Of a stretch of DNA of 64,000 nt, positions 57,255-58,539 are shown in pieces (the first letter of the stretch is position 1; each line of letters begins with the position of its first letter). Under the pieces are notes generated by a model. That model saw only the letters and a program-made list of their open reading frames with translations, ran no database searches and was not told the DNA's origin. The position numbers were made by a program, and so were the translations under genes. This DNA is from Halobacillus yeomjeoni (GTDB lineage: Bacteria; Bacillota; Bacilli; Bacillales; Halobacillaceae): the NCBI RefSeq assembly GCF_020171525.1, contig NZ_JAIVAI010000001.1:1178001-1242000 (forward strand). Direction: 5' to 3'.

Positions 57255-57439
57255 ATACTTCAAAGCCTTTCTGAATTTTTTGACCTTTTCTTGACATTAC
57301 CGAATTCAACAGGATATTTCAAAGGTTTTCACAAAATACTTCCCACGACCTTTAAATGACAGGAAGCTTTTAGTATGTGCCTCCCTTAATTCAAAGGCTC
57401 TGTTAACAACAATAGGCCTTGACAAAGCCATTAAAAAAA

Positions 57440-57470
57440 CAAAACCCCCGCCAAAAGGCGGGGATTTATT
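57440..57470 (-). terminator. Terminator of the YrzI operon
   Basis: CCCCGCC/GGCGGGG stem followed on the minus strand by TTTTGTTTTTTT, directly after the last small ORF. Confidence 0.85.
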
Positions 57471-57605
57471 TTAGCAATCTATAAATTTTGATTTATTATG
57501 ATTGATTTTTTCACGGATGATACGTGAACGATTCACTGAATCATCATGCTCGTGACTATTTCTTACTCGTATGGAAACGACAAAAATTAAAAAATTAATC
57601 GTCAT
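57471..57605 (-). CDS. yrzI: YrzI-family small protein, second paralogue
   Basis: The 44-residue product (MTINFLIFVVSIRVRNSHEH onward) has the family's hydrophobic strand-like start with a charged tail. GGAGG lies 8 bases before the ATG. It is the last gene of a tiny-ORF operon. The start MT[IL]NFLIF is shared with the paralogue at 57711. YrzI proteins are annotated as sporulation-associated small proteins, but the role is unclear. Confidence 0.85.
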   Translation of the reverse strand: MTINFLIFVVSIRVRNSHEHDDSVNRSRIIREKINHNKSKFIDC

Positions 57606-57631
57606 AAGATTTACCTCCGTTCGTTCATTCG

Positions 57632-57694
57632 CTAATCGGTATCCTTCTCGACATTCAACCAATCCATAAATACTACTCTTCTTTTTCCAGTCAT
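57632..57694 (-). CDS. 20-residue ORF between YrzI paralogues (S1025-like candidate)
   Basis: The ORF encodes MTGKRRVVFMDWLNVEKDTD, with AAAGGAG 8 bases before the ATG, 16 bases after one YrzI gene and 26 before the next. In B. subtilis the yrzI mRNA carries a comparably short ORF, S1025, inside which the ribosome-dependent nuclease Rae1 cuts between a Glu and a Lys codon (from memory). The VEKD stretch, GAG-AAG, could be the equivalent site. Confidence 0.65.
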   Translation of the reverse strand: MTGKRRVVFMDWLNVEKDTD

Positions 57695-57710
57695 TGCTGC
57701 CACTCCTTTC

Positions 57711-57848
57711 TTACATGAAATGAATAGATTTCGTCTTGCGGTCCAGGTGCTTCTCTTTTACGGAAGGATGATAACCGATTTCTGTCGCGTGTTTTGGACG
57801 TCTGTGTTTCTTCACTCGTACTGTGAAAATCAAAAAGTTCAGGGTCAT
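57711..57848 (-). CDS. yrzI: YrzI-family small protein, first paralogue
   Basis: The 45-residue product (MTLNFLIFTVRVKKHRRPKH onward) has the classic YrzI start and a basic tail. AGGTGGTGAGG precedes the ATG. It comes after an attenuator-like hairpin in the operon leader. A longer in-frame start at 57974, with its own AGGTGGTG, would give an 87-residue version reading through the hairpin; the short start is more likely. Confidence 0.85.
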   Translation of the reverse strand: MTLNFLIFTVRVKKHRRPKHATEIGYHPSVKEKHLDRKTKSIHFM

Positions 57849-57910
57849 TTCCTCACCACCTTTAAAGTGTTTTTTTATATTAAAAGAGTAAAAATACCCT
57901 TCAATATCAT

Positions 57911-57967
57911 AATAAAAAGCCACAGGGGCCTCCTGTGGCTTCGCTGAACCATAAAAAAAGCCACAGG
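57911..57967 (-). promoter_or_regulatory. Attenuator-like hairpins in the YrzI leader
   Basis: Reading along the transcript there are three segments: CCTGTGGC, then GCCACAGG, then CCTGTGGC. The second can pair with the first or with the third; the second-third hairpin is followed by TTTTTATT and looks like a terminator, the first-second pairing would prevent it. The first segment is also followed by seven T. Confidence 0.55.
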
Positions 57968-58020
57968 AATACATTATGCACCACCTGCAGCTTATATGCT
58001 CATGATTGTAAAATTAAATG

Positions 58021-58086
58021 TCATCGCTTCAGCGCAGGCCGATTCTTGTCATTTGATTGTTGGATCCAATATGTTTTGTTCATCAT
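58021..58086 (-). CDS. 21-residue ORF at the head of the YrzI transcript
   Basis: The ORF encodes MMNKTYWIQQSNDKNRPALK plus Arg, with GAGGT 10 bases upstream of the ATG (a second ATG lies two codons earlier). It is the first ORF behind a strong promoter and lies before the attenuator-like hairpins, so it may be a leader peptide. No family is known to me. Confidence 0.5.
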   Translation of the reverse strand: MMNKTYWIQQSNDKNRPALKR

Positions 58087-58129
58087 TTTCATCGACCTCG
58101 CTTTCTTCAAAATTTTTCTTATAGTGGAA

Positions 58130-58158
58130 ATTATATAGAAGCATATATGTAAAGTAAA
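58130..58158 (-). promoter_or_regulatory. Probable SigA promoter of the YrzI operon
   Basis: TTTACT and a perfect TATAAT are separated by 17 bases on the minus strand, 44 bases before the first small ORF. Confidence 0.75.
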
Positions 58159-58539
58159 GGTGTTTTTTGAAAAAAGGTAATATTCTTAATTAACTCATAT
58201 GTAACTTTCCCCTTCCCCTATGCCGTCTTTTGAAATTTTAATCAGATCCTTTGCCGCAATCCTCGCACTGAATCACGACATTTAAACCTTAAAATTCCTC
58301 CCAATAGAAATGCTTGGATTAAGTACATATACCAATTTGGTAAACAAAAATCTACATTAAGTAGATTATTTGTTGAGCCCTGAATTTTGAGGTGTTTGCA
58401 GGTACTGAAGGCTGAAAGAAGGGGGACTGTTTAAAACTCTTATACCAGGTTTCATTTAGAGTCTAGTAATTGAGAGGTTGTTTAGGAATTCTATTTGTTC
58501 CTAGCTTACTAATCAATTTCCGGCGAGGAAGGTTCATCC
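58159..58539. other. Gene-free AT-rich stretch
   Basis: The region lies between the YrzI promoter and a decayed gene on the other strand. I see no coding frame with a ribosome site, no hairpin of note and no repeat from the families found elsewhere in the window. Confidence 0.45.

Follow-up and report, generated by a model that had tools for sequence, protein, structure and literature searches.

A cluster of very small genes in Halobacillus yeomjeoni raises the question whether a 20-codon ORF lodged between two yrzI-like genes corresponds to S1025, a micro-ORF of the B. subtilis yrzI operon, and how the message that carries it is controlled. The cluster lies in the window, the whole stretch of 64,000 nucleotides of DNA that was analysed. 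Rae1 of B. subtilis reportedly cuts S1025 between a Glu and a Lys codon, and we know of only two Rae1 substrates. S1025 is the first Rae1 substrate to have been characterised (PMC11780869). Seven candidates for direct Rae1 decay have been described, including yrzI, S1024, S1025, S1026, bmrC and bmrD, and both yrzI and bmrC/bmrD are raised in a rae1 mutant. The yrzI and bmrCD messages of B. subtilis rise together upon tRNA-maturase depletion (PMC10100781), and those of yrzI and bmrBCD are raised in a whiA mutant.

The operon is read from the minus strand, and extends from a promoter-like site to an end terminator, with ORF1, two terminators, YrzI1, the 20-codon ORF and YrzI2 arranged in this order:

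58130..58158, minus strand: sigma-A-type promoter-like site TTTACT-17-TATAAT, 10/12 matches; both boxes also precede the leader in related loci
58092..58101, minus strand: A, GCGAGGUCGA, the ribosome site of ORF1, pairs with B
58021..58086, minus strand: ORF1, leader ORF, MMNKTYWIQQSNDKNRPALKR, 21 codons, of a type open through B in 114/114 loci
58032..58042, minus strand: B, UCGGCCUGCGC, complement of A, within ORF1
57953..57991, minus strand: terminator 1, with 5' arm C (57991-57984), 3' arm D (57967-57960) and a U-run
57916..57942, minus strand: terminator 2
57711..57848, minus strand: YrzI1, 45 codons
57632..57694, minus strand: S1025-like micro-ORF, 20 codons, MTGKRRVVFMDWLNVEKDTD, UAG stop, tail VEKDTD
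57644..57649, minus strand: GAG-AAG, with a predicted Rae1 cut between both codons (57647/57646), on codon conservation and analogy
57471..57605, minus strand: YrzI2, 44 codons, kept in related loci
57442..57467, minus strand: end terminator

The four small ORFs of the preliminary description (21, 45, 20 and 44 codons) were all recovered on the minus strand, with the sizes and the order claimed, as were its promoter and the GAG-AAG-GAT (VEKD) of the 20-codon ORF, at 57649-57641. The one terminator that it reported is found at the end of the operon, but two more are located between ORF1 and YrzI1, and the leader formed by these and the A:B stem had been missed. Shuffles of the region give 5.8 promoter-like and 1.6 terminator-like sites, versus 7 and 4 found. 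No Rfam family reached its gathering score in window positions 57300-58400. In the loci of ten relatives the sole match above gathering was a Bacillaceae-1 RNA (L047, positions 1794-1860; 54.8 bits, cut-off 35), located downstream of the operon, just 3' of it, in one genome of family f36. A conserved palindrome of the AAAGAGTA...TACTCTTT type was noticed in the interval that separates terminator 2 from the YrzI1 ribosome site (window about 57895-57862), and is present at the same place in related loci.

The genes flanking the 20-codon ORF are classed as YrzI-like by position and relatives only. The earlier claim of two YrzI paralogues stands to this extent, since position and relatives fit it, but YrzI1 stays under both curated cut-offs (14.1 bits with Pfam PF09501, cut-off 23; 13.6 bits with NCBIfam TIGR02413, cut-off 47.05), and YrzI2 has no YrzI match in Pfam or NCBIfam. 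YrzI1 was matched in 21/21 genomes of the same genus, in 20 at E < 0.001 and in one at 0.011. PF09501 matches 203 of the 397 genomes of the order (E <= 0.01).

The micro-ORF was traced within the family of the window, in 29 relatives plus the window itself, all 30 loci being oriented to the operon strand and then read. A 20-codon ORF resides at the same place in 29/30 loci, beyond what chance would give, and in the 29 micro-ORFs GAG is found in 29/29, AAG in 28, GAT in 27 and the UAG stop in 29. L010 features a diverged micro-ORF ending in IERDTG, in which GAG and UAG are retained. As in an S1025-type Rae1 target, the window ORF is a short ORF directly 3' of yrzI in the yrzI operon, an in-frame GAG-AAG (Glu-Lys) is found near its end, and Rae1 is encoded in the same genome. 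Co-occurrence with Rae1 was dropped as support: 396/397 genomes of the order have Rae1, and co-occurrence is therefore without power as a test.

Beyond the family, 90 yrzI neighbourhoods were read in the order (30 of those matched by PF09501 and 60 chosen by genus and family), with a further 80 named neighbourhoods, which are the best 80 of 182 relatives and lean to Bacillus. Micro-ORFs adjoining yrzI end in tails such as ...WLLVEKDST, ...WVEKDTT, ...HLNVEKDTA and ...HYTMEKDQV. The Bacillus spizizenii micro-ORF, MLRMELLMHYTMEKDQV, is made up by 17 codons, ends with UAG and occupies the same place; its length fits that of S1025, which we take to be 17 residues. Counts refer to 166 loci, taken from 230 that match a YrzI start pattern so that each has a different first YrzI protein, and are not counts of independent events, because close relatives are included. 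EKD is found within 12 codons of a stop in 104/166 loci, with exactly two codons between in 101 of the 104. An EKD-x-x-stop ORF is hence present beside yrzI in at least 101/166 distinct yrzI loci, a lower bound, because the start pattern misses real cases and L031, L049 and L050 were scored as misses though holding the micro-ORF. On the opposite strand, 469,710 codons contain not a single EKD-x-x-stop. When Asp at -3 is required, a micro-ORF is found in 150/166 loci, and a like rule gives 1/166 on the opposite strand. EKD is present in 100 of the 150, and the 50 others carry at the same place tails such as WGMKDTT, TGDST and VEEDST; the EKD site is thus not universal. A 20-position micro-ORF profile matches 197/397 genomes at E <= 1, and its matches were used only with yrzI context, because weak ones are mostly chance.

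Further variation was observed in single groups. Loci of family f20 (L314, L315, L331, L332) have extra small ORFs, and the tail is VEKGLT (GAG AAA GGC), not VEKD[S/T]. In seven Neobacillus-like loci (L217, L225, L229, L233, L234, L244 and L247) the micro-ORF has the tail KDTT or KDST, which lacks Glu, and the place held by YrzI2 in the window is taken by a short hydrophobic ORF with MPLH as its first residues.

GAG-AAR-GAY, the frame and the stop distance are shared by loci ranging from the family of the window to the B. subtilis group. As in the B. subtilis yrzI (spyTA) operon with S1025, the window micro-ORF lies just 3' of a yrzI gene, and its GAG-AAG-GAY is separated from a UAG stop by two codons. 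Position and core codons identify the 20-codon ORF with S1025, in line with the preliminary description, which had made this proposal depend on the frame and the VEKD codons being conserved next to yrzI in relatives; both are kept, in the numbers of order and family loci given above (at least 101/166 and 29/30). The window differs from the B. subtilis operon because a second YrzI-like gene follows the micro-ORF, which in turn differs from S1025 in the N-terminal part and in length (20 vs. 17 codons).

Codon choice in the EKD-x-x-stop ORFs was compared with that in the yrzI genes. Glu is encoded by GAG in 101/101 ORFs, versus 205/1024 Glu codons in yrzI genes. Lys is encoded by AAG in 66/101 versus 265/958, and the stop is UAG in 65/101 versus 14/232. 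The base preceding GAG is G in 82/100. By hand count, loci that obey the GAG rule carry 17 different family labels (f1, f4, f13, f17, f19, f21, f22, f25, f27, f29, f30, f36, f38, f41, f43, f44 and f47). Ser or Thr is retained at -2 from the stop by codons of different families (TCN, AGY, ACN), and the N-terminal part of the micro-ORF varies. The constraint on GAG and on the base preceding it looks like one acting at the RNA level, that on Ser/Thr at -2 like one acting on the peptide. The latter would suit an ORF conserved for a functional peptide, e.g. an antitoxin against YrzI, cutting by Rae1 being a side effect, and a paper from 2025 names the operon spyTA in its title. Such a peptide seems unlikely to be the main reason for conservation, as it would need neither the invariant GAG at -5 nor the preceding G, and would hardly vary in the N-terminal part; moreover, a similar tail is found 5' of bmrC, where 2 of the loci read had a yrzI neighbour.

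The distance to the stop may be read in another way. EKD exactly two codons before the stop in 101/104 loci, and the over-use of UAG, would be expected also for a ribosome arrest or slow-termination peptide, in which the fixed distance to UAG matters and cutting follows the stall. Yet the cut reportedly falls four codons ahead of the stop rather than at the stop itself, and 36/101 ORFs end with UAA or UGA, which makes an arrest peptide rather improbable. The purine-rich GGAGAAGGA might alternatively be an internal Shine-Dalgarno-like sequence, serving pausing or re-initiation and not Rae1. This is very unlikely, as the YrzI2 start is about 40 nt downstream in the window, and several tails do not have the motif (e.g. 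ACG GGG GAT, TAT ACA GAT). Cleavage of the window micro-ORF by Rae1, at the position predicted above, is likely, judging from codon conservation and from what is reported of B. subtilis.

Control of the message points to the leader. In the window's family the ORF1 ribosome site GCGAGGUCGA (A) is complementary to UCGACCUGCGC (B), found near the ORF1 end. Across 29 family leaders each A:B pair is broken in at most 3, and the eight core pairs of terminator 1 are intact throughout. In its centroid fold the window leader is composed of the A:B stem plus both terminators (z -2.96). In the B. spizizenii leader A:B is part of the minimum-energy structure, the stability of which is not exceptional (z -1.65, 10/200 shuffles as good). 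A covariance model of the family leaders, R1, finds matches in 134/397 genomes at E <= 0.1, and one such leader in the window genome. Among 16 out-of-family R1 loci returned, 14 show YrzI by pattern; to these add L181, adjoining a PF09501 match and an EKD ORF, and L175, a bmrC locus.

Pairing of A with B was found in 118/166 loci, compared with an average of 9.65 after shuffling and with 9 for the opposite strand, and seven-base A:B stems in 56/166, versus 0.9 and 3, respectively; the shuffles, here as at bmrC, keep base composition only. Five covarying types make up 111 of the 118 pairs: GGUCGA/UCGACC (89), GGCUGA/UCAGCC (12), GGUUGA/UCAACC (8), GGUCAA/UUGACC (1) and GGCCGA/UCGGCC (1). The remaining 7 are probably chance, given the background in shuffles and on the opposite strand. 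The GGCUGA/UCAGCC type is that of the B. subtilis and B. pumilus groups; B. subtilis group yrzI hence resembles the window in having a leader with a covarying A:B stem and terminators, and the letters differ, being GGUCGA/UCGGCC in the window and GGCUGA/UCAGCC at B. subtilis yrzI. ORF1 is open through B in 114/114 loci, compared with 8 and 33 for the two remaining frames, and B falls in frames 0, 1 and 2 of ORF1 in 63, 30 and 21 loci; B is therefore an RNA element inside a translatable leader. A terminator is located 3' of B in 113/118 loci. The leader has two of the parts of a ribosome-mediated attenuator, a translatable ORF with a ribosome site and an intrinsic terminator between this ORF and the first gene. 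In the window's family and in Bacillus sensu stricto, B can also pair with the 5' arm of terminator 1 (e.g. AACCUGUGGG with CCCGCAGGUU, L198). The pairing is not possible in most of the remaining families, and a B:terminator 1 antiterminator was rejected as an order-wide rule (113 leaders, mean shuffle p 0.485, p <= 0.05 in 19).

In B. subtilis a 234-nt Hfq-associated RNA has been described that maps between yrhG and yrzI (PMC3574147), and the leader could accordingly be a small RNA in its own right, its end set by terminators 1 and 2, with yrzI outside its control. We regard this as quite unlikely. The conservation of an ORF open through B argues against it, a terminated leader would itself resemble a small RNA, and read-through occurs, because B. 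licheniformis yrzI is reported to have a 301-nt 5' UTR (PMC3871023). Under attenuation, the 234-nt RNA and the 301-nt 5' UTR would be the expected forms of the terminated leader and of read-through.

The reading preferred for the window yrzI operon, to which we assign a probability of about 0.7, is that of a ribosome-controlled attenuation leader followed by Rae1 decay via the micro-ORF, with attenuation, antiterminator, cleavage and cut position as its inferred parts. ORF1 would conceal its own ribosome site, as A pairs with B, and, as two terminators precede YrzI1, many transcripts should end early. With A:B closed, termination would take place at terminators 1 and 2. If a ribosome opened the stem but was then delayed in ORF1, B would remain free; in the window's family it may engage the 5' arm of terminator 1, and transcription would continue. 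Induction by slowed translation is hinted at only indirectly, by the rise of the B. subtilis yrzI message upon tRNA-maturase depletion. Translation of the 20-codon ORF would bring GAG-AAG into the ribosome, Rae1 would cut the mRNA, and decay would start. On this reading the micro-ORF signature would provide a genome-readable definition of a Rae1-type site, predicting targets in many families and separating fixed traits (GAG, stop distance, UAG preference) from drifting ones, and the covarying leader would turn yrzI, an operon without known control, into a testable attenuator. S1025 as a Rae1 substrate and bmrCD attenuation are already known; the window element goes beyond the known S1025 because of the leader and of the link to bmr. 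Neither an order-wide micro-ORF signature, nor a covarying yrzI leader, nor a shared cassette was found in the literature at our disposal, and the core Rae1 papers may contain part of them.

To our knowledge, yrzI and bmrCD are the only Rae1-target operons, the second known Rae1 site reportedly being bmrX, a cryptic ORF in bmrBCD. A link between the two operons, which like the leader had been overlooked in the preliminary description, emerged from R1 matches. R1 matches directly upstream of a bmrC-like drug-pump gene in two genomes (G354, L175, E 5.2e-6; G392, L324, E 2.8e-4), and weak matches have the same location in three others (G145, G127 and G074; E 0.05-0.1). The bmrC-like protein is closest to YheI (BmrC); no other molecule name occurs among the solved chains that it matches at E <= 1e-60. 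Matches to it occur in 107/150 genomes, and 51 bmrC loci were analysed (the best 30, 20 chosen and L175). A micro-ORF ending shortly 5' of bmrC was found in 44/51 loci with a loose tail pattern, which prefers pattern matches, and in 27/51 with the strict tail [D/E]-x-[D/E]-[S/G/T]-G; at three control placements both patterns gave 0/51. Of the 44 micro-ORFs, 41 end with UAG; Glu at -5 is always encoded by GAG (17/17), and Glu at -3 mostly by GAA (26/32). Three bmrC loci of the genus Bacillus (L296-L298) are without GAG at -5, which speaks against a universal rule. In two genomes of family f12 (L294, L295) yrzI, micro-ORF and bmrC are found in one row. The yrzI gene 5' of bmrC in L294 (G054:C152) is interrupted by a stop codon.

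The leaders of the two operons match in part. In PMC4191407 bmrCD is described as being under ribosome-mediated attenuation, translation of bmrB controlling a terminator and ribosome-slowing antibiotics inducing bmrCD. The window operon and bmrB-bmrCD thus share a translated leader ORF and a terminator before the main gene, besides the micro-ORF tail. In contrast, the bmrB terminator is placed inside the coding region, and the yrzI leader has two terminators after a short ORF1. Exact A:B stems, frequent at yrzI, are few at bmrC, and weak evidence there (7/51 vs. a shuffle mean of 2.06, maximum 5). The window genome's own bmrC region (L293) has neither a tail-pattern micro-ORF nor an exact A:B stem, which argues against a universal bmr cassette. 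By description, the yrzI leader may also be likened to ribosome-mediated attenuators such as vmlR (named in the same article), where progress of the leader-ORF ribosome would decide between terminator and read-through; unlike resistance genes of the vmlR type, yrzI encodes tiny proteins of unsettled function.

Both Rae1-target operons that we know of carry versions of an attenuator plus micro-ORF cassette. Rae1 targets could be defined by a portable cassette, made up by a self-hiding-ORF attenuator and a micro-ORF of the type GAG-x-[D/E]-[S/T/G]-x-UAG, with Rae1 acting as second gate order-wide; we hold this wider proposal tentatively, at slightly less than even odds. If it were true, Rae1 would be a dedicated second gate, removing messages that escape stall-controlled attenuators. 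A common scheme is suggested for the two operons: slow ribosomes would be sensed, the message made, and then destroyed from within.

R1 was finally monitored away from the loci already read. Of 20 such matches, 12 precede yrzI-like genes, and one each a bmrC gene (L324), another ABC transporter gene (L313), an MFS gene (L328) and an APH-type gene (L318). Four (L320-L323) look like chance matches and were set aside. L328 (G024:C1:2587373-2587460) corresponds to the terminator part of R1, hairpin only, just 5' of an MFS transporter gene (92.2 bits). In L318 (G052:C5:99989-100184) a possible leader, GAGUGAG / CUCACUC, with a leader match at E only 0.07, precedes a gene assigned to the APH phosphotransferase family at 55.3 bits (cut-off 23.2). 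L313 (G070:C27:11388-11531) has a leader of the same design, with CUGAACGA in front, UCGUUCAG in the ORF and a terminator; the gene 3' of it encodes an ABC transporter ATP-binding protein (ABC_tran, 98 bits), the best NCBIfam match of which is drrA-like, below cut-off.
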